In this document: positions 13,550 to 34,054 of the stretch, piece after piece
Layout of the letters: each line of letters opens with the position of its first letter
Numbering within the stretch: the first letter of the stretch is position 1
NCBI GenBank assembly: GCA_016887485.1
Contig: CP069394.1
Span: 2,480,001-2,544,000 of the forward strand
Length of the DNA: 64,000 nucleotides
Origin: Chloroflexota bacterium
Lineage (GTDB): Bacteria > Chloroflexota > Anaerolineae > Anaerolineales > Anaerolineaceae
Direction of reading: 5' to 3'
Translations under genes and position numbers: made by a program
The notes under the pieces: model-generated
Databases searched by the model: none
The model's input: only the letters and a program-made list of their open reading frames with translations
Told to the model about the DNA's origin: nothing

Positions 13550-14002
13550 TTAGTTCGCAGGTTGGTACTGTTCTTCAATTATGGCGCCATCCTGGTCAAT
13601 TTTTAGGACCATGCTATCGGTTGTCAGGGTGACGATCTCATAGCTCAGGTCTTGTTCGGCGCCGGTGATCAGGACAAGCATGGGGCTGGAAATGGTATTG
13701 ATGTACCAATTGCCTTCTTCCTTGCCGCTGTCAGTAGTGATTGTATAAGCGCCATCTGCCAGGAAGGTGAAGGTCTTGCCGCCGTGTGCGGTTTCCTGGT
13801 TATTGACCAGATATGTGGTCAATGTCCAGGCTGGGACCTCAGTCAGTTGGGTGGCATCAATGGCGTAAACGGGATAGGCCTCATCGACCGGATAGGCACT
13901 ATCCTCGGAGCTGTCCGTTGTTTTCGGTTGAGCGCTCTTACATCCCGTGAGCAATATACTCATCACAACGAAAAGGATGGTAATGACCTTGATCGATTTC
14001 AT
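13550..14002 (-). CDS. Small secreted lipoprotein, unknown function
   Basis: A 150-residue lipoprotein starting at the ATG at 14002, which has AGGAG six bases upstream; a longer in-frame start at 14035 would overlap pyrG. Signal peptide then lipobox LLTGC with lipidated C21. The mature protein begins with Ser/Asp-rich sequence and two YPV units (AYPVDEAYPVYAID), followed by a compact beta-rich domain with TFTFLADGAYTITTDSG and GNWYI, resembling small lipocalin-like or META/HslJ-like barrels. No activity predicted. It follows pyrG by 17 bp and may be co-transcribed with it. Confidence 0.8.
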   Translation of the reverse strand: MKSIKVITILFVVMSILLTGCKSAQPKTTDSSEDSAYPVDEAYPVYAIDATQLTEVPAWTLTTYLVNNQETAHGGKTFTFLADGAYTITTDSGKEEGNWYINTISSPMLVLITGAEQDLSYEIVTLTTDSMVLKIDQDGAIIEEQYQPAN

Positions 14003-14019
14003 CGCAACTCCTGTCAGTC

Positions 14020-15681
<1,662 letters not shown>

Positions 15682-20330: not shown

Positions 20331-20809
20331 GACAAATTCCTTCCGATTTTGCTCTGTTCATTGCCGGGGAAGAATTATCCCCTTAGATTAAACAAAAAAA
20401 TTCGCTATTTTCAAGATTTAACCGTACATTACTCTGGAAAACAGTGATTATCGTCAATTGGATGCTATATTATCATATTTTTGATTCAAAATCAAGCAGG
20501 TTATGTGGATATAATCAAATAATTTTGAATAAACACCAAATATAATTAAGTCACTAATAGGCATAGTAATGCTCGAATTATCTGTCATTATCATTTGATC
20601 TATAAATATTTCTTCCACCGAGCTGATCGGGATTGGAACGTTTATTGCATCCCTAAACCTGACAATTTTATTCAATGGTTCAGGACGGAAGAATCATTCC
20701 GGCCTGGCATGAATGTTGCACATGTAGGGGTAGGTTTATTCTGAAACATTATCAAAAAAATACCCCGGTGCCTGGCCAGGGTCAGGTGATATTGCAAAGG
20801 GAGCTTAAT
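20331..20809. other. AT-rich intergenic region between greA and the M23 gene
   Basis: Divergent intergenic region. A GGGGA/TCCCC inverted repeat lies near 20365-20385 in the greA leader. The rest is AT-rich and shows no RNA gene I can name. A 73-codon minus-strand frame (20454-20675) has no ribosome site or recognisable product. The last 135 bp could extend the M23 gene from an ATG at 20675, but the ribosome site and membrane segment favour a GTG at 20810. Confidence 0.4.
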
Positions 20810-22825
20810 GTGAGTAAAACATTGAAATTCGGGATTATTATTTTAGCCATTTTATGCCTGGCTTTACTGGCATTGACTCTGCTTGAACTACCCGGAAAAT
20901 CGAACGAGGATCAGGTTGTCGCCCAGACCGATTCCACCCCGCAGGATTGGGGTGATTCGGATCTGGCTGAGGTAGTGCTTACTGCGATTGATCAATCTGA
21001 AGGTTGGTTGCCGGCGGAGTCTTATGTTATTGACATGATCCAATATCAGGATGATGGGCAGGTCGCGGCTGTTTGGTTGGCAGCGATTGACCCGGAGACT
21101 GGTGAATTAATTGGCCGCGAACCTGATTTGGTGATGGCTGAGCAGGATGCTGAAGGCAAATGGATTTTGATGGTCAGCGGGGAAGAGAAATTTGATGACG
21201 TCCTGACAGAATTTCAATATGTTTCCAAAACGATTCAGGGAGATGTGGATGCGGAGCAGGTTGCAATTTCCAAAGACGCTAAGGTGTATGGTGGTTACTA
21301 TCTCCCCTGGGCGGAGAACCTGACCAAACGTCTGACCTGGTCTGTGGGACATACCTCCTGTTATCCCACCTATTACTGCACCCATGCTTTTGACTTTGCA
21401 GATGGCACCATGTTCCCCATGGTGGCTGCCAAGGGTGGGACGGTTTACCATTGGAAGGACAACTGTGCGAATGGAGATTCTTCTTGCACCAACAGCATAA
21501 CTATTCAGGACCGTTCCACCACACCCTGGACATACCAGATCTACCTGCATATTGCGCAGGGTTCAGTCCCAGCTAACCTGAAACAGGTCGGCGCGCCCGT
21601 GATGCAGGGGCAGTATATAGCAGATGTGGATGATACCGGCTACAGCACCGGACACCATGTTCACTTCATGGTTGTTTCGGACGAAACGAAATACCTTTCT
21701 GTCAGTGGTTATATCTGGGGTGTTGCGCTGGATATCACCTTTAAAGATGTCTCAATAAACTGGGATGCCGCAACCCAGGGCGGTCGCCCGCGGCTCGAGT
21801 ATGAAGCCGCAACCTACGGCGGCGAAGGACAGGCATACTACACCTCGGGTAATGCCCCGGCGAATCCGCCGACTGGCGCTCTGACGGCACCGCTTACAAA
21901 GACATATCAAACTGATCCCCTGATGACCGTTTCAGGGTGGGGCCAGGACGATATCGCTGTTACCAAATTGGAAATTCTGGCGAGATATGATGATGGCGAC
22001 TGGATGACGATTGACGAACAGACTGCGACGCCCTTCACGGCTCAGGTGAATTTGTGCGAAACGGAAGTGCCTGATGGTCCCTTTGATTTGGCCCTGCGGG
22101 TCTGGGATTATGAGGGCAATCCCTCCTCGATTGTTTCCATACGGGAAGTGGTCAAGGGTGTGGAGTGTTCAGCAGGGGTGGACCCTGACGTTTCGTTGAA
22201 TAAGATCAATGGCACAGTCCTGCTGCCCAACAGCGGCCAGGTCAGTGCAACTGTAATTAAGGGCAGTACCAACAGCAATATCGTCTCCGTGGACTTTTGG
22301 TTCCACGGTATGAATTGGAATGGCGATGAATGGGTTCTGCTCGGTACGGACACTAACGGTGCTGATGGATGGCAGGCCCCCTTTGAAGCCGGCAGCCTGG
22401 GCGAATCAACGACTTATTCCGTCCTCGCTGTGGCGACCGATGCCCTGGGCAATCAGGGTACGGACCTGACCTTCAATGCAACTTTGGATAAGACTAATCC
22501 ATGGGTGAATTTTGGTTCGATCAATTCGCCTATATTGACCGGACAGTTTACTATCACCTGGACTGCTGGTGATCAGTTAACCGGGATAAGTCATTATGCT
22601 CTCGATATGAAAGTTAACAATGGTGAGTGGCAACCTTTGGACAGTAAGCTCGCCAAAGAGGCTTCTTCCTATATAATCAATGTAAACGAAACGGAGCTGA
22701 TTATTATCCGGCTGATCGTAACGGATAATGCCGGGAATGTTACTATTGGAAAAACAGCGCTATACTCAGAAGGTTATGTGTTCCCTGAAGGTTTAATATT
22801 CCCGATATTTTTTAATAATCATTAG
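20810..22825 (+). CDS. Secreted M23 (LytM) metallopeptidase with C-terminal Ig-like domains
   Basis: About 671 residues from a GTG at 20810 with AGGGAG upstream. A signal anchor (about 5-27) exports it. The LytM core lies at about 165-300: first zinc ligands in THAFDFADG (about residue 195), later HHVHF (about 281) giving the HxH pair. This domain cuts peptide bridges in peptidoglycan or similar. The C-terminal half (about 350-650) looks like two or three Ig/bacterial cadherin-like modules (KTYQTDPLMTVSGWGQDD, TNPWVNFGSINSPI). The protein ends in GLIFPIFFNNH, resembling the hydrophobic-Pro-hydrophobic C-termini of other secreted proteins of this group. An in-frame ATG at 20675 would add 45 residues with a Cys-rich leader. 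Confidence 0.88.
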   Translation: MSKTLKFGIIILAILCLALLALTLLELPGKSNEDQVVAQTDSTPQDWGDSDLAEVVLTAIDQSEGWLPAESYVIDMIQYQDDGQVAAVWLAAIDPETGELIGREPDLVMAEQDAEGKWILMVSGEEKFDDVLTEFQYVSKTIQGDVDAEQVAISKDAKVYGGYYLPWAENLTKRLTWSVGHTSCYPTYYCTHAFDFADGTMFPMVAAKGGTVYHWKDNCANGDSSCTNSITIQDRSTTPWTYQIYLHIAQGSVPANLKQVGAPVMQGQYIADVDDTGYSTGHHVHFMVVSDETKYLSVSGYIWGVALDITFKDVSINWDAATQGGRPRLEYEAATYGGEGQAYYTSGNAPANPPTGALTAPLTKTYQTDPLMTVSGWGQDDIAVTKLEILARYDDGDWMTIDEQTATPFTAQVNLCETEVPDGPFDLALRVWDYEGNPSSIVSIREVVKGVECSAGVDPDVSLNKINGTVLLPNSGQVSATVIKGSTNSNIVSVDFWFHGMNWNGDEWVLLGTDTNGADGWQAPFEAGSLGESTTYSVLAVATDALGNQGTDLTFNATLDKTNPWVNFGSINSPILTGQFTITWTAGDQLTGISHYALDMKVNNGEWQPLDSKLAKEASSYIINVNETELIIIRLIVTDNAGNVTIGKTALYSEGYVFPEGLIFPIFFNNH

Positions 22826-22920: not shown

Positions 22921-23880
22921 TTGGCAGTTGCTTTGATCACCGGGATTACCGGACAAGATGGCTCTTACCTGGCAGAATTTTTGCTGGCTAAGGGCTATCG
23001 TGTTGTCGGCATGGTTCGCCGGTCAAGCACGGTGGATTTCGAGCGGATTGCTCATATTCAGGATCAAATTGAAATAACCCACGGCGATCTGGCGGATCAG
23101 GGATCTCTTTATGAGATTTTTGAAACCTATAAGCCGGATGAGGTTTATAACCTGGGCGGTCAGTCGGATGTTCAGCTTTCCTGGACCCAGTCCGTTTTGA
23201 CCGCCGATTCCACGGCTTTAGGCGTGGCCCGGATATTGGATTGTTTGCGTCAGGTGACGCCTCGGTCAAAATTCTATCAAGCCTCCACCAGTGAGATGTT
23301 CGGTGACGCTGGAACTTCCCCTCAGAATGAACAAACGCCTTTGAATCCCCGGAATCCCTATGGGATAGCCAAGGTCTATGCCCACCTTTTGACGCAAAAT
23401 TACCGCAAACATTATGGATTGTTTGCGGTTGCAGGTATCCTTTACAATCATGAAAGCCCCCGGCGTGGGAAGGAATTTGTCACCCGCAAAATCACGCACA
23501 CCGTTGCCCGGATTGTGAACGGTCAGGCCGATGAATTGCGCCTGGGCAACCTGGATTGCCAACGGGATTGGGGTTTTGCCGGCGATTATGTCCGAGCGAT
23601 GTGGTTGATGCTCCAGCAGGATGACCCTGATGATTATGTGATCGGCTCTGGTCACCTGCATACCGTGCGGGACTTCTGCCGGGTTGCTTTTGAAGTCGTT
23701 GGATTGGATTATCAGGAATATGTAGCTCAGGATCCCCAGTTCTTCCGGCCTGTGGAGGAATACCCATTGTTGGCCGATCCATCTTATGCTCACGATCAGC
23801 TGGGATGGGAGCCAGAGGTTGGCTTTGAGGATTTGGTTCGATTGATGGTCGAAGCTGACCTGAAAGCTTTGGAAAAGTAA
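22921..23880 (+). CDS. gmd: GDP-mannose 4,6-dehydratase
   Basis: Converts GDP-D-mannose to GDP-4-keto-6-deoxy-D-mannose, the first step to GDP-fucose, rhamnose or perosamine-type sugars for surface polysaccharides. 319 residues, extended SDR fold: NADP-binding TGITGQDGSYLAEFLL at the start, the catalytic Y-x-x-x-K as NPYGIAKVYAH, catalytic Ser/Thr in QASTSEMFG and the hallmark LYNHESPRRGKEFVTRKIT. The start is a TTG with AGGAG eight bases upstream. The partner reductase is not adjacent. The glycan cluster at 27-36 kb may use its product. Confidence 0.95.
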   Translation: MAVALITGITGQDGSYLAEFLLAKGYRVVGMVRRSSTVDFERIAHIQDQIEITHGDLADQGSLYEIFETYKPDEVYNLGGQSDVQLSWTQSVLTADSTALGVARILDCLRQVTPRSKFYQASTSEMFGDAGTSPQNEQTPLNPRNPYGIAKVYAHLLTQNYRKHYGLFAVAGILYNHESPRRGKEFVTRKITHTVARIVNGQADELRLGNLDCQRDWGFAGDYVRAMWLMLQQDDPDDYVIGSGHLHTVRDFCRVAFEVVGLDYQEYVAQDPQFFRPVEEYPLLADPSYAHDQLGWEPEVGFEDLVRLMVEADLKALEK

Positions 23881-23893
23881 CAGGATTGATGGA

Positions 23894-25165
23894 ATGAGTG
23901 GCGAAAATTTGCTTAGTGACCGCGAACAAGAAATCCTCCGGCTGGTGGCCGAAGGGTTGACCAATCGCGAAATCGCCCAGCAGCTCTCCATCAGTCATAA
24001 TACGGTAAAAGTCCATCTCTCAAACATTTTTGAGAAAGCAGGCGTTTCCTCTCGCACTGAGGCGACTCTTTATGCCATTGAACAACGCATCGTGGACGTA
24101 CCCGGTGGCGAGGATGACACTCAGACGGAGCAAACGAATACACCTGGCTTAGTGGCCCGTTTCCGCTGGATCTGGTTGGTAGCCGTTTTAGTAATTATAT
24201 TTCTTGGCGTCTTACTTGGAACGAACCTTTTTACGGCAGAGGAAACGCCGGTTACAATGGTCCCCACCGCAGATGTGGCGGAACGCTGGCAGGCATTGGC
24301 GTCATTGCCCCAGCCTGAAACCGGTATGGCATTCGTAACGTATTCCAATGAAATATTCAGCATCGGTGGGCAGAGTTCGGAAGGCGGCGTTGGTGATGTT
24401 TATCGGTTTGATCTGGCAACCGGCATTTGGTCCGCCGCAGCGGTCAAACCCACACCGGTCTCGGAGGTTGAGGCGGTTTTGATTGGCGAGAAGATATATG
24501 TCCCCGGCGGTTTTGATTCAAGCGGCTCTCCAACCGCAGCGTTGGAAATTTATGATCCCCGGCAGGATATTTGGACAACAGGCGCAGCACTGCCTGAACC
24601 GCTTGCCAATTATGCTTTGGCGGATTATGAAGGCCTGCTTTATTTATTCGGTGGGTCAGATGGTGACAAAACCAACGATATCGTCTGGATCTATGACCCG
24701 GTGCAGGATACCTGGCAGCCGGGTGCCCCTATGAAGACCGCTCGGGAAGGTGCGGCAGCTGTGGCGCTCACTGACCGGATTGTTATTCTGGGTGGGCGAA
24801 ACGAGACTGGATTACTACAGTCCACGCAATCTTATTTCCCATCCCGTGATGCCAATGGGGAGGATCCCTGGGAGGAATTTGTTGATATGCCGCAGGGCCG
24901 CGCTGAGTTTGGCGCCGCCAGCATATATGACTTGATCTATCTCTTGGGCGGTGAGGTGGACGCCGCAGGGGAAACAGGGTTGATCCTGGTGGAAGGGAAT
25001 TGGGTCTCACTGCCTGTGGAGCAGGATTACACCACCAGCCACACCCGGCTGCTCTCCATTGGCCAGCTGCTCTATGTCCTGGCAACGTCACCCGAGATGA
25101 CCGAAACGGAATTCTGGTCCTACCAGGCCTTTTATTACAGCATCTATATCCCGATTGTGCCTTAG
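23894..25165 (+). CDS. Membrane-bound LuxR-type HTH regulator with extracellular Kelch propeller
   Basis: A 423-residue fusion. Residues about 5-68 are a LuxR/FixJ helix-turn-helix (LSDREQEILRLVAEGLTNREIAQQLSISHNTVKVHLSNIF pattern, split here as SDREQEIL, AEGLTNREIA, ISHNTVKVHL). One TM helix is at about 94-117 (WIWLVAVLVIIFLGVLL). The rest (about 128-423) is a Kelch-type beta-propeller with repeated GG motifs: IFSIGGQ, IYVPGGF, LYLFGGS, IVILGGR, IYLLGGE, each followed by a Tyr/Trp-containing strand such as DVYRFDLATGIWS. It would put DNA-binding inside and the propeller outside. It ends in SIYIPIVP. It begins 13 bp after gmd and may be co-transcribed. Confidence 0.9.
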   Translation: MSGENLLSDREQEILRLVAEGLTNREIAQQLSISHNTVKVHLSNIFEKAGVSSRTEATLYAIEQRIVDVPGGEDDTQTEQTNTPGLVARFRWIWLVAVLVIIFLGVLLGTNLFTAEETPVTMVPTADVAERWQALASLPQPETGMAFVTYSNEIFSIGGQSSEGGVGDVYRFDLATGIWSAAAVKPTPVSEVEAVLIGEKIYVPGGFDSSGSPTAALEIYDPRQDIWTTGAALPEPLANYALADYEGLLYLFGGSDGDKTNDIVWIYDPVQDTWQPGAPMKTAREGAAAVALTDRIVILGGRNETGLLQSTQSYFPSRDANGEDPWEEFVDMPQGRAEFGAASIYDLIYLLGGEVDAAGETGLILVEGNWVSLPVEQDYTTSHTRLLSIGQLLYVLATSPEMTETEFWSYQAFYYSIYIPIVP

Positions 25166-25239: not shown

Positions 25240-25731
25240 TTAGTTTTCCACGAGGGCCATATCAAACATGATTCCAATTAATGGCCGGACGTAGTAATTG
25301 TCGTTATAGACAAAGTCATTTGCGTTAAGGTCTGTTCCGGTCAGGTCTCCAAGTTGAATGCCAATCTGATGCTGTTCGGGCAGGCCGTTGGCTAAATCAA
25401 TTTGGAATGTTCCATCGTCACTAATGACCGTTGTACCCAGTAATTCTCCAACATCCGTTGCGTCAATTAGAATAATCGGAACGCCAGCAGGACCTGTGCC
25501 AGTGACAACTAAATCGCCGGTTTTCAGTGGGGTGTCAATTGAAAAGTCTGGACCCATAACATAAGTGATTTCATATTCTCCGACAGGGTAACCATCAGAA
25601 ATGGGATATCCACTTTCTGATGCCTCAGTTGAATTGACATCAACTTGAGCAGGCTCCGTACTTGGGGTGGATTGGCAACCGACCAAAATCAGGGTTGCAA
25701 TAATGAAGATGAGAGGCAATGTTTTTCTCAT
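25240..25731 (-). CDS. Secreted lipoprotein with single Ig-like domain
   Basis: A 163-residue lipoprotein: signal peptide with lipobox LILVGC, lipidated C19, then a Ser/Thr/Glu linker carrying two YP units (GYPISDGYPVGEYEITY). The mature domain (about 60-163) reads like a small Ig/CnaB-like beta sandwich (KTGDLVVTGTGPAGVPIILID, TTVISDDGTFQIDL). The YP-rich linker is similar to that of the lipoprotein at 13550. No enzymatic motif. An A/T-rich upstream region contains TATAAT. Confidence 0.82.
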   Translation of the reverse strand: MRKTLPLIFIIATLILVGCQSTPSTEPAQVDVNSTEASESGYPISDGYPVGEYEITYVMGPDFSIDTPLKTGDLVVTGTGPAGVPIILIDATDVGELLGTTVISDDGTFQIDLANGLPEQHQIGIQLGDLTGTDLNANDFVYNDNYYVRPLIGIMFDMALVEN

Positions 25732-25825: not shown

Positions 25826-27391
25826 TTACGGAACGTAGTTGATCATTTCGTAGTTGCACATATCTCGAGTTTTAGTGGGGGAGTTCTCAGCAACCAGACC
25901 AATGATGGCTTGGTCAGCATGGACGATCACACTGAAGGTTTTACCATCTAATTCGCTGAAACTAGTGAAGCCGCTTATGATTGTGAAGACGGATTCATCA
26001 GTTTGATTTGAGATGCCGTAGGTGTTGATCGCAGCATCCGGGGCTAAAGGAGTGGTAGTTTCGAAAACATAGACATTGTCCGTGCCATATTCGTAATATG
26101 AGAACTGAACTGTCGCAGCGGAGCCACCAACATTTTGAACGGTGACGGCACCGGTAATATTGCCGACAAATTCAATCAGGTTTGGACCAGCGAGATCGGT
26201 TGAGGCGTTATTGGCTGGGTAGCCAGCATAGAGGTTGATCCCGTAATTGCCGGGGACATATGACCGTTTCTTGTCATTGGTTGAAGAGATGAGTGGCTGA
26301 GGATCGTAATCGTCGTTATCAATTGATTCAATGACCGCCGAGGCATAGGTGCCAGCAGGCATACCACCAAGGTTGTTGGAGTAGCTATCAAACACTTGAG
26401 CTTCGCCAGGAGCGAGGATCATGAAATCGGTGAACTGTTGGCCGATATAAGCGGAGTGGCGGCTGTCAACATTGGTCACGGTCAGGGTGATCTGCACGTA
26501 AGCATCAGCTAAGCCGACATTCATCACAGCGGCGCTTGCATTCATGGTGCCGTAGTAATCGTTCTTGACGGCAGGATGGTAGAGGACGGTGTCCTGATCT
26601 GCAGCGCTTTGCATTCTCGTGGAGAGGGCATAGCCAGCAGGTGAGCCGGTGTGGGGATGCTCGGTGATGACAGCAGCAATTGGGGTGGTTGCGGAAAGTG
26701 TCAGGGAACCGTAGCATGGGGATGTCGCTGAGCCAGTGCCGCAATCTTCAGTTGGAACGCCAGCTGAGGCGGGATCAAGCATATACATCTTATTGGCATC
26801 AATTGAGATGGTGTCGGTATAGATCGAGCCATCATTCATCTGGAAGGTGTAAACCACATCTGAATCAGCACCGGCGGCCTGGATATAGAAGGTTGTGGTG
26901 TGATTGAAGTAGTTGCTCTTGACTTTCGGCATCATTAATTCGGTGGAGGCCATATCCTGGCTGATGCCCTGATAACGGGCGCAGGCTGTACCGCCGTTGG
27001 TTCCAACGGAACCATTCGGGAAGTTAGCGATTTCCGAGACGGAAGCAACGGGAACGCTGGCTGAAATCACGACGGAACCCTCGAACCCACTGGGGAGGGA
27101 GGAGTCGAAGCCAATGTATGAACCGCCGGAACCGTAGTTTGGTGTGACGCCGGGATCATAGGCAAGCGCCTGGCCAAAATCAAAGGCGTAGGATTCGCTG
27201 CCATAGACATCTGTGCTGGAGCCGCCAGCGTAAGCGGTCATCTGGATTGTCCCATCAACGCTGCCTGTCGCCAGGTTTTGGACGTAAAGGGAAGACCACC
27301 AGCCACTGCCTGGAAGATCAGCAAAGACCGATGTCACGGTCAAGAGGCCGATGAGCAGAACAAATGCAAAAGCGATGAGAAACCGTTTCAT
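25826..27391 (-). CDS. Large secreted beta-rich protein, unknown function
   Basis: A 521-residue secreted protein with a clear signal peptide (about 1-24, cleavage after SVFA). The mature protein is rich in Gly, Ser, Thr, Tyr and Asp and poor in charge, with two related halves, each with a Trp/Tyr-containing strand start such as SLYVQNLATGSVDGTIQMTAYA and AVTVQNVGGSAATVQFSYYE, suggesting repeated Ig-like sandwiches. Three or four Cys are spaced far apart. It ends CNYEMINYVP. Such proteins are plausible surface-layer or adhesin components, but no family is recognised. It has GGAGAAG upstream and its own terminator, so may be strongly expressed. Confidence 0.82.
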   Translation of the reverse strand: MKRFLIAFAFVLLIGLLTVTSVFADLPGSGWWSSLYVQNLATGSVDGTIQMTAYAGGSSTDVYGSESYAFDFGQALAYDPGVTPNYGSGGSYIGFDSSLPSGFEGSVVISASVPVASVSEIANFPNGSVGTNGGTACARYQGISQDMASTELMMPKVKSNYFNHTTTFYIQAAGADSDVVYTFQMNDGSIYTDTISIDANKMYMLDPASAGVPTEDCGTGSATSPCYGSLTLSATTPIAAVITEHPHTGSPAGYALSTRMQSAADQDTVLYHPAVKNDYYGTMNASAAVMNVGLADAYVQITLTVTNVDSRHSAYIGQQFTDFMILAPGEAQVFDSYSNNLGGMPAGTYASAVIESIDNDDYDPQPLISSTNDKKRSYVPGNYGINLYAGYPANNASTDLAGPNLIEFVGNITGAVTVQNVGGSAATVQFSYYEYGTDNVYVFETTTPLAPDAAINTYGISNQTDESVFTIISGFTSFSELDGKTFSVIVHADQAIIGLVAENSPTKTRDMCNYEMINYVP

Positions 27392-27521
27392 TTTTCTTCT
27401 CCTAAGTAACTAAGGATTGATTAACACAATTGTTAGTATGAGTATATGAATTACTGGCTCAAATTACCATAATACCTATGGGTTATTCTGATGTGGGGAG
27501 AGGTTGGTATGCTTTGAAGTG

Positions 27522-28874
27522 CTACTTTACCTTGCCAAAAATGTGGCTGACGATACCGATTCGTTTGCGTACGATGATGTACATCCAAATTTGAGAAACT
27601 GCCATGGATGCTGAAGCAGCAATTGCTCCTGCAACCATGCCGGTGAGAGGGGCTAGAACAAGGGTGAATACGATATTGAGAATGCTGGTAATAATTATGA
27701 TTTTCATGACATCTTTTTCATGGCCGGTCATGTTCAACAGGATGTTTACCGATCCCAGGAAGGAATTGATCACCTGGCCGATCAATAGGACGACCAGGGC
27801 AGGGTAGGCAGCGATCAATTTGGTGCCAAAGACCAGGGTAAGTAGATTCTTACCAAAGATGATGAAAAGGGCTGAGATAAGTAAATTAAGCACAAAGACG
27901 AACCGAGCGCTGAGAACCGTCAGGCGCTGCAGCTTATTCTTGTCACCATTCGTATGCAGAGAAGTGAACTGTGGCGCAATGATGGAATTAATGGCGGTTA
28001 GCACCACAGAGGCCAGGGTTGCAGTGCTGAGTGCAACCTGAAAACTTCCAATTGCTGCCGAGTCTACGAAGAAGCCTAATACGATTATGTTGGTTCGGCT
28101 TCTTACTAGATTGATTCCGCTTGAGAAGATCAACGGGATAACGCTGGATAACCAGATTTTTGAATGATAAATAGGCTTTGCCTGCAAGATGGCTTTTGGC
28201 GTGTACTTGAATAAAAAGAATACACTGGCCACGACAGCCACAAAGGTTGAAACAACACGTAAAGCCATTGCGACAGGTGGGGTGAAATCCAGTTTTGAAA
28301 GATACCCAATACCTATAATGAGGACGGTGAAAAGTCCAGGCGTAATCCATAGATCAGGAATCTGCCCAATAATTACTTTTTTAAGCCCGCGCAGCGCAGC
28401 GTTGATCAGAATGACCAAAGATTGTAATGGGAGTAGGAGAAGGCCCCAGAAGAAAGTGGAAGTTTCCACAGAACCAAAGAACTGCTTCCCGATCATGCCG
28501 CTGGCAGCACCCACAAGCAACAAGATGAAGCTGACCAATAGGGTGGCTCTAAATGACCATCGCCAACTGCCTGAGATGGTGTCGTTATCTTCTTTGACTT
28601 GGCCTTTAGAGGTTTCGCGTAAAAGCAGCGTTGAAATACCAAACTCCGCTGGAATGATTAAGATATAGGCAAGCGAAAAAACATAGCTGTAGACACCATA
28701 GCCGTCATCTCCAAGGAGCCGCACTAAAAAAGTGCCAATCAGGAAGGAGAGAATCTTACTGCCACCATTCAAGAACACACTGCGAATGCTATTATTAATC
28801 AACTGGCCGCGAAGGTCTTCCCCCTTTAGCATGTTGACATATTGGGCGATCGTGTCCTTAATCCGTTTGATCAT
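27522..28874 (-). CDS. Polysaccharide flippase (Wzx/MurJ-like, MVF/MATE fold)
   Basis: A 450-residue integral membrane protein with about 12-14 TM helices. The N-terminus SIRSVFLNGGSKILSFLIGTFLVRLLGDDGYGVYSYVFS is the standard Polysacc_synt signature: lipid-linked oligosaccharide flippase. It probably moves an undecaprenyl-linked repeat unit across the membrane for the polysaccharide made by the neighbouring glycosyltransferases. It overlaps the beta-propeller gene by 4 bp, the last gene of the cluster. Confidence 0.93.
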   Translation of the reverse strand: MIKRIKDTIAQYVNMLKGEDLRGQLINNSIRSVFLNGGSKILSFLIGTFLVRLLGDDGYGVYSYVFSLAYILIIPAEFGISTLLLRETSKGQVKEDNDTISGSWRWSFRATLLVSFILLLVGAASGMIGKQFFGSVETSTFFWGLLLLPLQSLVILINAALRGLKKVIIGQIPDLWITPGLFTVLIIGIGYLSKLDFTPPVAMALRVVSTFVAVVASVFFLFKYTPKAILQAKPIYHSKIWLSSVIPLIFSSGINLVRSRTNIIVLGFFVDSAAIGSFQVALSTATLASVVLTAINSIIAPQFTSLHTNGDKNKLQRLTVLSARFVFVLNLLISALFIIFGKNLLTLVFGTKLIAAYPALVVLLIGQVINSFLGSVNILLNMTGHEKDVMKIIIITSILNIVFTLVLAPLTGMVAGAIAASASMAVSQIWMYIIVRKRIGIVSHIFGKVK

Positions 28875-30055
28875 TTTTCCTTTTCACGACTCGTTTGGTG
28901 AACAGGATACTTTGTTTCGTGCAGCTTGACAAATGAATTGGGCGGCAAAGAGAAATTGTCCGGTAGCAGTTTGATATCAAACACACCTTCGGTAGGGTCT
29001 TCAGAGAATTCGACCTTGGAGAGAACGGTGAGGGTGGAGAGGTCAAAGTGGATCAGGATATTATTATCACCGATCAGTAAAGTGCCATCCGGCAATTGGC
29101 AGGCGCCACGCAGAAAATGCTCTCCAATTTTAGTTCTGGAAAAAACCTTGTTGGTGAAGGGATCAAAATGAAGAATTTCCCCAGAACTGGTATCCAGATA
29201 GATCGCTGTTTTGTCCTGCAGGATTCGGATGCTGTGACTGGGTACGACGCAATGATCCAGAATGAGGCTCTCTGTGAGTGGACCGTCTGGGGGGAAGCGT
29301 AGAATCAGGCTGTAGGATTCTTCTTTGGTGATTTTGGTGGCTTCAAATTTATTATTCTCTTTAACGAAGAGCTTTTGATAGGTGTCATAGAGCCAGGGCA
29401 GAAGCCCGGAGAAGATTGTATTTTTGAGTTGATTGTTCCACTTGTGGAAATGATAACGGGAGATGACCCTAACCAAACCACAGGAGATCAGGAGGTCTCC
29501 GTTTTCAAGAAAGGCGAAGCTGTTTACATGCAGGGAATCGGTGATGGCACTGTCATGAGATAAGGGGTTGCGATAGTCATATTTCCCCTTGCGGATGGCG
29601 CGGTCACTCAGGATAGGCTGAATAGGTGTTTTCGCATATTGGTTGATCAGGTCATTGGAACGGAGATCGAAGTATTTTATGATTTCCCCATTAAAATCCA
29701 ACAGTGCGAGGATGTCCGTGCGTGCACTTGTCACCCATACCCCTTCATCGGTCAGCAGAATATCATGGAAGCCTGCACATGTAGGGTGAAAAAAGTAATT
29801 TATCGGTTGCCAGGTCTCATCATAGATGAAAATAGTACTGGCATTTGCAACTGTAACACGATTTCCAAGAAAACTGATTCCCTTTAACCCACGATAGCCG
29901 CCGCGTGGGTTGGGATCAACATTCCGATATGGAGGTTCAATAATTTCTGTCCGCTGGATGATTTCATGCTTGTCTGTGTCATAAACGACAAGATATCCAG
30001 AAGGCTCAAAGGCTTTTGATTTTCGTAAAGCAGTTGGAATAAGAACAATTGACAT
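28871..30055 (-). CDS. TIGR03032/DUF4915-like beta-propeller protein
   Basis: A 394-residue protein without signal peptide. It has repeating propeller strands and the family landmarks I associate with TIGR03032/DUF4915: GFHDILLTDEGVWVTSARTD, LHVNSFAFLENGDLLIS, VPSHSIRILQDKTAIYLDTS and LRGACQLPDGTLLIGDN. The conserved His in FHD, HVN and SHS could form a central site, as in NHL-like or arylsulfotransferase-like propellers. It lies between a sulfotransferase and a flippase and overlaps the flippase gene by 4 bp. Similar proteins often sit near sulfotransferases and glycosyltransferases, so a role in sulfated-glycan assembly is inferred. GGAG precedes the ATG. Confidence 0.7.
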   Translation of the reverse strand: MSIVLIPTALRKSKAFEPSGYLVVYDTDKHEIIQRTEIIEPPYRNVDPNPRGGYRGLKGISFLGNRVTVANASTIFIYDETWQPINYFFHPTCAGFHDILLTDEGVWVTSARTDILALLDFNGEIIKYFDLRSNDLINQYAKTPIQPILSDRAIRKGKYDYRNPLSHDSAITDSLHVNSFAFLENGDLLISCGLVRVISRYHFHKWNNQLKNTIFSGLLPWLYDTYQKLFVKENNKFEATKITKEESYSLILRFPPDGPLTESLILDHCVVPSHSIRILQDKTAIYLDTSSGEILHFDPFTNKVFSRTKIGEHFLRGACQLPDGTLLIGDNNILIHFDLSTLTVLSKVEFSEDPTEGVFDIKLLPDNFSLPPNSFVKLHETKYPVHQTSREKEK

Positions 30056-30104
30056 ACATCAACTCCATATGGGATGGCGCGTTTGGCCTATCCTCATTAA
30101 TTTC

Positions 30105-31010
30105 CTAAGATAGCCAGGAGGAGAGATCACGATTGATCATAGTCTCCAACTGTAAAATTTCGTCCCGATAGGCATCGACCAACTGTTCACGGACCTTATT
30201 GGGAATCTCACGTCGTTTGAGGTTCTTGAAACGAACCCAGGCAGCGAACTTCATCCGCCAGTTTCTTGGCAACACTTTGCGCGAGACCCACCGGATGGGG
30301 TTGGGGCTGGAAAAGAGCCATTTTGAAGCTTTTTGGACGGTTTCACTTTTGACATTACCGGATGCGTTATAGCGCATCAGACTTCCCGGCACGAAGGTGG
30401 GGTCCACATCGAGAAACTCGTAAATTTCTGCCAGCAGGTTATCCAGGTCATTGACAAGGTCTTCATATAGATAAACCCGAATCTGTTCTTTTGGAAAGAG
30501 GGAATAATACCGTTTTAATTGTTCATAATAATGTCCAACATTGGTGAAGTGCCAGATGGGTTCCCAACCGGCAGCCTTCCGGCTTTCTTCTTTTGTTAAG
30601 GCTTCAGCAAAATCATTAGATGTCTCACGTTTATCCCGGACAACATGCATATAGGCAGAAAAAGCTCGATCGGCAGGATTGCGCAGAATCGCGATCAATT
30701 TCGCATCCGGAAGCATCGTATGGATACGCCCGGCTGCCTCAGGACGATAAAGATAAGAAGTGGATGCCTCGCCAATCGCCTTTTCATCCGTCACGCCATC
30801 AAACAGGGCTTGGTAGGTGTCAAAATCCGTGATGGCTTCATGGATTGGATCGCCCGGTCCTGTGGTCATTTTCGATTGGTCATCGAAGGAGAAAAAATGG
30901 GGCTCCTTGGAGGGGCTCATAAAGATCTCGGGGTGCTGCATCAGGTACATATATAAGGAACTGGTACCGGATTTGGCAGCGCCAATGATCAGGAAGTTCG
31001 GTAATGTCAT
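30105..31010 (-). CDS. Sulfotransferase family protein (PAPS-dependent)
   Basis: A 301-residue P-loop sulfotransferase. The 5'-phosphosulfate loop is GAAKSGTSSLY (about 10-20), and the 3'-phosphate region is in AILRNPADRAFSAYMH. It resembles heparan-sulfate N/O-sulfotransferases (LYMYLMQHPEIFMSPSKEPHFF). It transfers sulfate from PAPS to a sugar or similar acceptor in the cytoplasm. It overlaps the glycosyltransferase at 31007 by 4 bp, and the beta-propeller gene follows 49 bp later. The evidence points to a sulfated surface polysaccharide. Confidence 0.92.
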   Translation of the reverse strand: MTLPNFLIIGAAKSGTSSLYMYLMQHPEIFMSPSKEPHFFSFDDQSKMTTGPGDPIHEAITDFDTYQALFDGVTDEKAIGEASTSYLYRPEAAGRIHTMLPDAKLIAILRNPADRAFSAYMHVVRDKRETSNDFAEALTKEESRKAAGWEPIWHFTNVGHYYEQLKRYYSLFPKEQIRVYLYEDLVNDLDNLLAEIYEFLDVDPTFVPGSLMRYNASGNVKSETVQKASKWLFSSPNPIRWVSRKVLPRNWRMKFAAWVRFKNLKRREIPNKVREQLVDAYRDEILQLETMINRDLSSWLS

Positions 31011-31939
31011 TTCTTCTCCCGGGGTTCAGTGAGGGAAATGGTCAGTCCGTTCCATAGCCCGCGAAGGGTGTCTTTGAACGGCCCGCGATTGCCCATTCTC
31101 TCACGAAGTTTCAAAGCATGAATTGCGGCATCAGCGAAAGCATAAGCGAAGGCATAGAGGATGAAATAGAGCTTGGAGAAGATGTTCGGCGCATGTTTGC
31201 GAATGAAGATCATCTTACTTTTATTCCAGTTATAAGCCGTAAAGGCTGTATAGGAGATGGAGCCCACTTTATGCCAGATCTTTGCCTCGGGGACATACAT
31301 GATCTTATAACCGAGAGCCTGGGCGCGGTCACAAAAGTCAAATTCTTCATAATATACAAAGAAGTCTGTGTCAAAACCGCCCGTTTTCTCCAACACCACC
31401 CGGCTGATCAACATAGTGGCCCCCCAAGTGTAATCGACCTGCCGGATATGGCTGTTTTCAGGCGAGTCAGTTTGACCGCGGAAGCCATCCGTTATTTTGA
31501 AGAACCGACCTTTTGAATCCACGCCGCCATACCAAATGACGTCATGGGGATTATAGAAGTAGATCTTAGGGCTGATGATGCCAATGGATGGATCGGAATT
31601 GGCGACTTCGATCAGAGGAGCCAGGAAATTAGGATCGACTTCAATGTCTGAGTCCATCCGGATCACATACTCTGCGCCGTGAGCCAGGGCATAGTTGAAT
31701 CCGGCATTGGAGCCGCCTGTGGCGCCAATGTTGTTTTCCAGGGCCAGCAGGTGCACCTTAGGATAATTGGCTTTCATCTTTTCAACTGTGTCGTCTTTTG
31801 AGCCATTATCCACCACGATGACCTGCTCCATGTTCACTTCGGATTTTGCGAGTGAATCGAGGGTGGCGATCAGGTCATCGGCCCGGTTAAAGGTGGGGAT
31901 GACGGCCCAAAAGGAATCGCGAGTCAATTTTTCAGTCAA
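31007..31939 (-). CDS. Glycosyltransferase family 2 (rhamnosyltransferase-like)
   Basis: About 310 residues. The probable start is a TTG at 31939 with AAGGAAAG upstream, overlapping the end of the previous GT2 by 8 bp; a longer GTG start at 31975 is inside that gene. GT-A features: AVIPTFNRADDL, VVDNGSKDDT, the DxD equivalent in IRMDSDIEVDP, and WGATMLISR in the acceptor part. The VVDNGSxD and FDTDFFVYYEEFDFCDRA pattern matches WbbL-like rhamnosyltransferases. The C-terminus has an amphipathic segment. Adds one sugar to the repeat unit. Confidence 0.9.
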   Translation of the reverse strand: MTEKLTRDSFWAVIPTFNRADDLIATLDSLAKSEVNMEQVIVVDNGSKDDTVEKMKANYPKVHLLALENNIGATGGSNAGFNYALAHGAEYVIRMDSDIEVDPNFLAPLIEVANSDPSIGIISPKIYFYNPHDVIWYGGVDSKGRFFKITDGFRGQTDSPENSHIRQVDYTWGATMLISRVVLEKTGGFDTDFFVYYEEFDFCDRAQALGYKIMYVPEAKIWHKVGSISYTAFTAYNWNKSKMIFIRKHAPNIFSKLYFILYAFAYAFADAAIHALKLRERMGNRGPFKDTLRGLWNGLTISLTEPREKK

Positions 31940-32831
31940 CAGTCTTTCCTTCCAAACGATCAGCAGCACCGGCACACCAGGCTGCTTTCAATCGGTAAAC
32001 GTATGGGATGATTTTCGCGTTTTTACGAACCTCTTTGGTCCGGGCCACAATCTTCAGTGTGGTCCAGGCGGCGATCAAGGGCTTGAAGATTCGCCAGACC
32101 GCGGCGGATTTCAACAAGGCGGGCATGTGAAAGATTTCAGGATGCTCATAGCGGACATCAATCATGTAATATCCTGAGCGGTAATTGTCTCTCCTGAGTG
32201 CCTCAAAATCATGCCGTGGTGGGTGATGTTCCACAATCGCGGCTGGTTCGAAGAGTAAGTGGATCCCGGCGTGGGTCATGCGGGAAGTCCATTCTATGTC
32301 CTGACCGCGCATCAGGGCCTCGTTTAAGGGGCCAACCTTTTCGACCACTTCACGCTTCATGGCCAGGTTGAGGGTTGGCAGGTAGTGATGTTCCTCGCGG
32401 GGCTGGGATGCAAGCTGTTCGTGGAACATCGAGAGATTATAAACGAGCAGCCAGAAATTATCCGTGGGGGATTGGACGCCGCCGCCAACCACCTGCCAGC
32501 CTTCGGCGAAATCAGCAAAGAAAGTGTCAATCCAGCCGGGCAGAGCGATGCAGTCGGCATCAATGAAGATCAGCGAATCGGAAGCGGCTTCGCGGATGCC
32601 AATGTTGCGGGCTTCCGCCGCACCAACCGGTGCGGGTGTCTTGATGAATTTGACCTCAGAGAAATTTTCCACCAGCCCAAATTTATCCATCCCCACTACG
32701 ATGATCTCAAAGCTGCGGTCGGTTTCCTGGGATAGGATGGACTGGATCGTCCGGTCGATAACTGGCGAGTGCAGGTTGGGGATGATGATCGAACAATCGA
32801 GTTTAGTCTGAGCTTGTGGTTCCTGGGTCAT
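31932..32831 (-). CDS. Glycosyltransferase family 2
   Basis: A 299-residue GT-A enzyme: CSIIIPNLHSPVIDRTIQSIL, then EIIVVGMDKFG, the DxD as FIDADCIALPGWID, and the acceptor/catalytic region ALMRGQDIEWTSRMTHAG. The D-A-D triplet binds the metal and nucleotide sugar. Substrate not predictable. It is followed by an overlapping GT2 gene, 56 bp after the upstream GT4 gene. Confidence 0.9.
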   Translation of the reverse strand: MTQEPQAQTKLDCSIIIPNLHSPVIDRTIQSILSQETDRSFEIIVVGMDKFGLVENFSEVKFIKTPAPVGAAEARNIGIREAASDSLIFIDADCIALPGWIDTFFADFAEGWQVVGGGVQSPTDNFWLLVYNLSMFHEQLASQPREEHHYLPTLNLAMKREVVEKVGPLNEALMRGQDIEWTSRMTHAGIHLLFEPAAIVEHHPPRHDFEALRRDNYRSGYYMIDVRYEHPEIFHMPALLKSAAVWRIFKPLIAAWTTLKIVARTKEVRKNAKIIPYVYRLKAAWCAGAADRLEGKTVD

Positions 32832-32887
32832 AAGCCGCGTTTATTTTCCATATTCATCAAGTAAATATCAAGCCCGTAGTTGGCGGG

Positions 32888-34054
32888 TCAGTTTTGCTGC
32901 AATACGTTATTGTAGATGGCTATTATACTCTCCGCCAGCACGTTCCAGTCATAATGGGCCTTGGCGCGTTCCCTGCCCTGAAGGGCTGCGCTCTGCCAGA
33001 AGGATTTATCTTCCAGCAGGGTCGTAACCGCCTGGGCAAGTTCGTCGCTGTTGCCTGGCTCAAAGGTGAGTCCGGTTTCCGGCGTGATGACAGTGGGGAT
33101 GCCGCCGGCGCGGCTGCCAATGCAGGGTGTGCCGCTGGCCATCGCTTCCACCAACACAGCGCCCTGGCCTTCTTCGGTGGAGGGGAGGATGAAGATTTTG
33201 GCTTCCCGCATCAATCGGGCGACATCAGCCTGGGATTGGGTACCCAGGAACTGGACGCGATCTCGCAGGGCATGCTGGTCGGTGTAGACTTCCAGTGACT
33301 GCCGCAGGTCACCTTCTCCAACGATCTGTAATTGCAGGGTTGGGAATTGATCCCGGAGTTTCTCCATGGCCTGCAGCAGGGTGATAACGCTCTTACGTTT
33401 GATCAGCGAGCCGACATAGATCAGGGTGTCTTTCCGGTCTTCCGGCGCGCCTACAGGGAACTTGCTGATATCAATCCCGGTGGGGATCACCTGGATCTTC
33501 TCTGGTGAAATGCCAACACTTTCAGCACCCTCAGCCAGCGCCTGGCTGACGGCGATGATGTGGCTGGCATGTTCTAATGCAGTTTTGACCGGAATCTTAA
33601 GCAGTGGCTTATCAACGGTTTTGAAAATATCGCTGCCGTGGATTGTGACCACATAGGGCAGGTGATGGAAGGGGCGGGTGATTGCGGAGGCAAACCCGGC
33701 CAGGCTGAAATTCGCGTGGATGATGTCGCAGCCTTTAGCGTGCCGGGCGACAGCATCGGTTAGCGCAGCGACATATGGGATCATCGCTAATTTGTAGATA
33801 AAACCGCGCTTCCAGGCAGCCGGCAAGCCCGCCGAATCCTTTTGGAGGACCTCCGCTTTTTCCGGCAGGTATTTTGCCCGGAAGACTTCCATTCCCTCGA
33901 AAATTTCGTGCTGTTTGGTGCCAGGTTGATGGGGCGTGATGATCCGGACTGTGTGGCCTTTGGCCTGAATGGCCCGGGCGACATCAATGATGAACGGCAC
34001 TCGGAAATCGCCTTCCCACCGAGGAAAATTCGTTGTGACAATCGCAATTTTCAT
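32888..34054 (-). CDS. Glycosyltransferase family 4 (GT-B)
   Basis: A 388-residue GT-B enzyme. The acceptor half begins KIAIVTTNFPRWEGDFRVPFI and has the Gly/His-rich loop near ANFSLAGFASAI; the donor half has IYVGSLIKRKSVITLLQA, LQIVGEGDLRQSLE, and the EX7E motif in STEEGQGAVLVEAMASGTPCIGS, then GIPTVI. Retaining transferase for a nucleotide sugar such as GDP-mannose. It follows the GT-C membrane protein by 112 bp. Confidence 0.95.
   Translation of the reverse strand: MKIAIVTTNFPRWEGDFRVPFIIDVARAIQAKGHTVRIITPHQPGTKQHEIFEGMEVFRAKYLPEKAEVLQKDSAGLPAAWKRGFIYKLAMIPYVAALTDAVARHAKGCDIIHANFSLAGFASAITRPFHHLPYVVTIHGSDIFKTVDKPLLKIPVKTALEHASHIIAVSQALAEGAESVGISPEKIQVIPTGIDISKFPVGAPEDRKDTLIYVGSLIKRKSVITLLQAMEKLRDQFPTLQLQIVGEGDLRQSLEVYTDQHALRDRVQFLGTQSQADVARLMREAKIFILPSTEEGQGAVLVEAMASGTPCIGSRAGGIPTVITPETGLTFEPGNSDELAQAVTTLLEDKSFWQSAALQGRERAKAHYDWNVLAESIIAIYNNVLQQN

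Follow-up and report, generated by a model that had tools for sequence, protein, structure and literature searches.

The stretch of DNA analysed here, referred to as the window, comprises 64,000 nucleotides of the forward strand of a Chloroflexota bacterium (assembly GCA_016887485.1, contig CP069394.1, positions 2,480,001-2,544,000). It holds the gene of a putative membrane-anchored regulator, a gene for a secreted surface protein that we call surf, and a predicted operator at the surf promoter, arranged as follows:

22921..23880, plus strand: gmd-like gene (GDP-mannose dehydratase), separated from the receptor gene downstream by 13 bp
23894..25165, plus strand: LuxR-TM-Kelch receptor gene, 423 aa (ORF list, Pfam)
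23909..24076, plus strand: GerE/LuxR helix-turn-helix (HTH), residues 6-61 (Pfam, AlphaFold2 model)
Within this HTH, plus strand: recognition helix, about residues 35-49 (V40, S43)
24164..24229, plus strand: single transmembrane (TM) helix, residues 91-112 (hydropathy, AlphaFold2 model)
24275..25126, plus strand: Kelch propeller of six blades, at about residues 128-411 and predicted to be extracytoplasmic (model, structure match, repeat count)
25103..25162, plus strand: conserved C-terminal tail of the receptor, residues 404-423, ending YQAFYYSIYIPIVP
25240..25731, minus strand: gene of a small Big_6 lipoprotein, on the strand of surf and downstream of it
25826..27391, minus strand: surf, secreted surface protein of 521 aa with a signal-peptide-like N-terminus and four beta-sandwich domains; proposed target
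27441..27446, minus strand: TATACT, the -10 hexamer, at a conserved offset and separated from the -35 hexamer by 17 bp
27464..27469, minus strand: weak -35 hexamer TGGTAA, overlapping the operator
27468..27487, no strand assigned: predicted operator, a palindrome of 20 bp that reads AATAACCCATAGGTATTATG on the minus strand and scores 21.0 bits

The receptor gene is a single, unbroken frame that starts with ATG. GerE (PF00196) is matched at residues 6-61 with 75.5 bits against a cut-off of 23.5, and Pfam, the AlphaFold2 model and structure matches all indicate the four-helix HTH of LuxR/NarL regulators. Kelch_1 (PF01344) is matched in four stretches with 114.5 bits against a cut-off of 20.1, several Kelch families score above their cut-offs, and Pfam, the model and the structure search together indicate that the repeats close into a propeller. 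The model, built from 77 sequences, has a mean pLDDT of 89.8, with 90-99 in the propeller blocks and disordered linkers at residues 73-86 and 120-125, and its propeller matches solved Kelch propellers (Keap1, KLHL12 and the designed SAKe) with Z of 34-35, mostly over some 255 residues at an rmsd of 1.7-1.8. The sequence-only reading had proposed a LuxR HTH, a TM helix and a Kelch propeller of five or more blades in one polypeptide. This architecture was borne out, and the blades can now be counted as six from the repeats that start at W132, W179, W227, W274, W326 and W370; the TM helix also stood, its proposed position at residues 94-117 being a few residues off the model helix. One dominant hydrophobic segment lies between the HTH and the Kelch repeats in 77/77 homologues (best 19-residue hydropathy mean at least 1.9, second-best at most 1.79 in each), and lysine and arginine predominate on the N-terminal side of this segment in 62 of these, are balanced in 12 and are fewer there in 3, a bias that favours an N-in/C-out topology. 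Given this bias, and since the HTH must sit in the cytosol, we infer that the propeller lies outside the cell, as had been proposed; the signals taken together do not favour the cytoplasmic propeller that would have counted against the proposal.

The surf protein is modelled as four beta-sandwich domains (pLDDT 85.4, pTM 0.86). Pfam gives nothing for the window copy of surf at 0.1, and matches across its homologues are scattered, with DUF5719 in 7/29 and weak NCBIfam matches to FxLYD in 5/29 and to 'putative S-layer protein' in 1/29. The fold search yielded no convincing full-length match among the structures listed, where a probability of 1.00 together with a TMt above 0.7 was reached only by the single-domain structure 1nc7 (TMt 0.73). 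Profile iteration over 80 receptor loci and the window placed surf in 32 of the 81 stretches (two fragments; many flanks are short), and it occurs in 29 of 61 related genomes, once in 27 of these. Among the matches listed, receptor and surf lie no more than 5.1 kb apart in 16 of the 22 relatives that have both. On the same basis, genomes outside the class have them within 10 kb in 10/25 cases, about 24 kb apart in 4, far apart in 3 and on different contigs in 8. The two genes are on different contigs in 72 of the 83 class genomes with both; 8 others have them within 1 kb (three of these also belong to the relatives), one has them 11 kb apart, and in two they share a contig at a large distance. 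As such, the linkage recurs in distant lineages and is not general, and the neighbourhood of the receptor suggests surf as its likely target.

The spacing of the lipoprotein gene indicates that it is probably co-transcribed with surf, and its family is often found beside surf (28 matches, some of them distant, in the final profile round, which had not converged). In this lipoprotein and another at 13550-14035 (minus strand), YPI/YPV motifs are repeated immediately behind the lipobox (SGYPISDGYPV and SAYPVDEAYPV), and at least two such motifs are present in 9/69 lipoprotein-like ORFs of the loci set compared with 11/1197 ORFs overall. The region upstream of surf, at 27522-34054 (minus strand), contains a polysaccharide flippase-like gene (Pfam) and, as we read the sequences, genes resembling glycosyltransferases; similar clusters are near the receptor in several other loci.

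An EM motif search in 37 surf upstream regions returned AATAAtCC.TA.GGaTTATT with a log-likelihood of 213, compared with 30-34 in three shuffles. The predicted operator is thus a 20-bp palindrome of consensus AATAAYCCnWWnGGRTTATT with NarL-like 7-2-7 geometry, overlapping the -35 box. With the refined matrix the window holds one site, that of surf, and the next best scores 8.9 bits, so that neither the gmd-like gene nor the rest of the window has a site above this value; the 16-bp core has one exact match in the 2.9-Mb genome, at the surf promoter. At a threshold of 12 bits, chosen after the training scores were seen, 34/37 training sequences carry the operator (the misses being L062 with 10.9 bits, L074 with 9.2 and L106 with none), compared with 15/2299 background windows of 501 bp. 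When aligned on the operator, the sequences have in common a G that follows the palindrome, and they share a -10 box, in that TAnnnT occurs at offset 41 in 30/50 and within one base of it in 38/50, compared with 1 to 8 at seven control offsets, and TTG and TTGA stand at -35 in 35/50 and 24/50, respectively. Of a second set of 20 sequences, 18 have TTG at -35 and 14 have TAnnnT at offset 41. With a 17-bp spacer and the start site assumed from the -10 box, which puts the predicted +1 of the window at about 27434, the operator is centred at about -43.5.

Together, these data make it probable that the receptor is a membrane-anchored one-component regulator whose HTH binds the surf palindrome and most likely activates that one promoter. 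The propeller would read the state outside the cytoplasm, most likely a cell-surface protein or glycan, and the signal would cross the single TM helix by altering dimerisation or orientation of the HTH, a dimer of which would bind the 20-bp palindrome upstream of surf. Given a site that is centred at about -43.5 and overlaps the -35 box, the bound receptor would most likely activate the surf promoter, a likely outcome by analogy with NarL, with repression as a possible one. The NarL sites described in PMC7419079 are 7-2-7 inverted repeats, and the activating site at ogt is centred at -44.5; a 20-bp palindrome is also described for DosR (PMC2275270). The opposite sign, in which the receptor binds the same operator and represses surf until the signal relieves it, appears somewhat unlikely to us: the overlap with the -35 box and the fair -35 and -10 boxes that many sites keep, according to the TTG and TTGA counts above, are consistent with it, whereas the resemblance to the ogt position and the poor -35 of the window argue for activation.

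Activation by the receptor would concern a single promoter. Allowing up to one mismatch, this genome has 9 sites compared with 28 for the reversed control, and in the 61 relatives exact sites number 34, of which 9 precede surf at a distance of up to 250 bp, compared with a reversed-control total of 41 (sums and distances worked out by hand). Since both counts lie below the reversed control, the remaining matches away from surf look like background, and the best reading of the sequences would be a receptor dedicated to one surface-protein gene. Upstream of the receptor itself (40/76 sequences sampled) the motif search gave no clear signal, three of four settings falling within the shuffles and one slightly above them (51.2 vs 37-46); autoregulation through the operator is unsupported and was dropped. 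The earlier suggestion that the receptor regulates envelope genes is supported by the predicted operator at surf. Its other clue, the neighbouring gmd, fared differently: the two genes are probably on the same transcript, and a gmd-like cluster lies upstream of the receptor on the same strand in 7/78 loci, with a second GDP-mannose-dehydratase-like cluster within 10 kb in 6/78 (many flanks are short in both counts). The gmd-like gene is a local neighbour, not a general partner, and was dropped as such. Upstream of it, the window encodes an M23-peptidase protein (20675-22825, plus strand), whose cluster lies upstream of the receptor on the same strand in 11/78 loci.

A further question is which protein binds the palindrome. 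The operator was found in 16/20 new receptor-bearing genomes of a first set and 16/17 of a second (originally 17/19, from which the match G055 and the miss G059 were removed as training duplicates), or 32/37 in total, compared with 7/21 surf loci from genomes without a detected receptor (6/20 in the first set, to which G041 is added; Fisher p=8e-5, kinship ignored). Seven near-related g167 genomes, several of which share sequence, are among the 14 operator-less loci of the latter group, and counting g167 once gives 32/37 vs 7/15 (p=0.005, kinship otherwise ignored). This correlation of palindrome and receptor suggests that the receptor binds the operator. Direct control is favoured by a receptor that is conserved and has mostly one match per genome; against it, those 7/21 loci also carry the operator, 5/37 new receptor-bearing genomes and 3/37 training sequences miss 12 bits, and in 72 class genomes receptor and surf are on different contigs. 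We consider it unlikely that surf is controlled by another response regulator of the LuxR/NarL type, bound at the operator, while the Kelch receptor regulates something else. Twelve GerE matches in this genome, the receptor among them, leave room for such a protein, as do the seven operator loci of genomes without a detected receptor, two of them in G250 (97% complete), one in G041 (94%) and four in MAGs that are 81-87% complete. Of ten loci holding the best matches in such genomes, four were inspected: those of G250, G342 and G182 encode ordinary response regulators, in keeping with this alternative, and that of G024 a different LuxR-TM protein; in G041 the match is a Kelch lipoprotein. The way in which the operator follows the presence of the receptor, the linkage of receptor and surf in distant lineages and the covariation at V40 described below argue instead for the Kelch receptor. 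The LuxR-TM protein of G024 (L238:1436-2980, 514 aa) has an N-terminal LuxR domain and an outer part without a Kelch match, and the surf gene tested in that genome is without operator. G250 has three surf matches on small contigs among the matches listed, with the operator in both of the two loci tested (L212 and L213); it belongs to family f12, whose other listed members are without receptor and surf, and its surf copies may reflect misbinning or lateral gain.

Covariation was scored over 65 receptor-operator pairs, including one duplicate (L066/G055), with sites down to 9.5 bits and without G085 and G119, in which the receptor HTH was not found. Six receptors have A or T in place of V40, and each is paired with an operator that carries C at position 3, whereas V40 is changed in 0/52 pairs without this C (p=2e-5, third of 630 tests); covariation is stronger at residue 52, outside the recognition helix (p=2e-6), and residue 62 (p=2e-5) is also among the best. 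V40 is retained in seven pairs whose operator has C in a single half, and the four operators with C in both halves all belong to the six V40-variant pairs. Since all six variants fall in family f50, the V40 change is possibly a single event. In addition, R43 is present in 28/28 pairs with C at position 4 and in 27/37 without it. The site forms relevant to a comparison of the V40 and V40T/A HTH are AATAACCC and AATCACCC. Receptor residues 5-66 align to a NarL stretch of equal length and place residues 39, 40 and 43 at K188, V189 and K192, which are base contacts in NarL. A look for these contacts in passages of PMC4549865 did not find them.

The HTH is the most conserved region of the receptor (3.47 bits per column), and within the propeller blades 2 and 3 are the most conserved (2.65 and 2.70 bits per column vs 1.65-2.13 in the other blades) and are a possible ligand area. 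In the tail, Y410 and P420 are strongly conserved and a strict pattern of it is present in 38/88 receptors; it occurs in 0/267 signal-peptide-like and 0/737 other neighbouring ORFs, and the tail was dropped as a general export tag. Three receptor homologues (L164:6129-7430, L165:1646-3076 and L172:2159-3394) keep the HTH and have degenerate propellers, and those of L164 and L172 directly adjoin surf. It is highly improbable that the propeller is an enzyme or structural domain of the NanM/YjhT kind attached to an HTH that no longer regulates: Pfam NANM does reach 54.1 bits on the receptor against a cut-off of 45, but the NCBIfam scores lie far below theirs (YjhT 33.2 of 256, NanM 33.9 of 416 bits), and the HTH is precisely the region that is best kept. 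Finally, the chance that the receptor is a fusion artefact of two genes is close to nil, as no support for it was found and GerE and Kelch_1 lie in a single ORF in 77/77 aligned homologues, the window protein among them, which already refutes it.

The search for this architecture across Chloroflexota, as the sequence-only reading had advised, revealed a conserved fusion. In the class sample, 216/298 genomes match the receptor alignment at 1e-30, a figure that is approximate either way, as five candidates were scored per genome (undercount) and weak matches may be Kelch-only (overcount); among the matches listed, for 148 class genomes, nearly all are full length; a single match per genome is usual, with two to five in some. 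Among the 61 relatives, 60 match somewhere at 1e-3, many in the HTH only, and 26 match in HTH and propeller among the matches listed. The phylum sample has matches in 70/301 genomes, many Kelch-only, with presence possibly undercounted at five candidates per genome. Outside the class, the matches listed comprise 28 receptor-bearing genomes, mainly of families f82 and f92, with G566 having the propeller part only, and full-length homologues also occur in other families of the phylum. In family f12, of the same order, the receptor is missing from the genomes listed, 13 in the class sample. A scan of named genomes gave 255 relatives, of which 80 loci were kept, all with Chloroflexota names and including the cultured Longilinea, Anaerolinea, Ornatilinea, Bellilinea and Thermanaerothrix; the receptor searches covered this phylum alone. 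In the genome studied here the receptor is the only Kelch_1 protein (3 matches, all in the receptor gene).

ToxR and CadC combine an N-terminal cytosolic DNA-binding domain, a single TM helix and a C-terminal extracytoplasmic sensor. The receptor shares this layout and differs in its domains: ToxR and CadC carry an OmpR-type winged helix, whereas the receptor has a LuxR/GerE HTH with a Kelch propeller as sensor, and at 1e-3 Trans_reg_C is found neither in the 15 families matched by the window protein nor in the 20 matched by the 77 homologues, in agreement with the distinction first proposed. Its HTH matches NarL, VraR and DosR/DevR structures over ranges of equal length, and the predicted operator resembles NarL/FixJ-LuxR sites in being palindromic, 7-2-7-like and near -43.5. 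Unlike NarL, VraR and DosR, the receptor is without a receiver domain and its HTH is N-terminal and membrane-tethered; no receiver, HisKA or HATPase_c was found among the families of the window protein and the 77 homologues at 1e-3. The propeller shares the Kelch fold with Keap1/KLHL12-type domains at 19-29% identity to Kelch structures among the matches listed, and differs from Keap1, KLHL12 and NanM in that a TM helix links it to a DNA-binding domain; with respect to NanM/YjhT, it passes the Pfam family and fails the NCBIfam subfamilies. The survey of transmembrane transcription regulators (TTRs) by Demey et al. 2023 (PMC10269533) covers more than a hundred DNA-binding domains, with single-pass proteins as the commonest kind; LuxR, GerE and Kelch do not occur in the main text, and members may well stand in the supplementary tables. 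The receptor resembles TTRs in joining a DNA-binding domain and a TM helix in one polypeptide, and is set apart by being one architecture, widespread in a class, with a predicted operator and target. A literature search by title and the start of the abstract, with supplementary files outside its reach, found no description of a LuxR-TM-Kelch architecture. The receptor would join the transmembrane transcription regulators in a form that is, as far as we searched, previously undescribed.

Here we also put forward, tentatively and as a possibility only, that the receptor, the single operator and surf form a closed circuit of coat homeostasis kept across distant Chloroflexota, in which the propeller would bind surf, the lipoprotein or a glycan on either and report the state of the coat through its one TM helix to the surf promoter. 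For one Chloroflexota envelope, a 2026 paper (PMC13319060) describes a multilayered surface; Kelch is not mentioned there.

For many membrane-bound transcription regulators, signals and targets are unknown. The conserved receptor presented here comes with a predicted operator, with promoter boxes spaced regularly from it, with a single predicted target and with a recognition-helix residue that varies with the site in one clade, so that a small protein domain and a short DNA would suffice to test the path from end to end. It shows a Kelch propeller as the outer part of a protein joined to a LuxR DNA-binding domain and offers a handle on the control of the unusual cell surface of Chloroflexota, whose state the receptor, acting through one dedicated operator, would read by simple means that are conserved widely.
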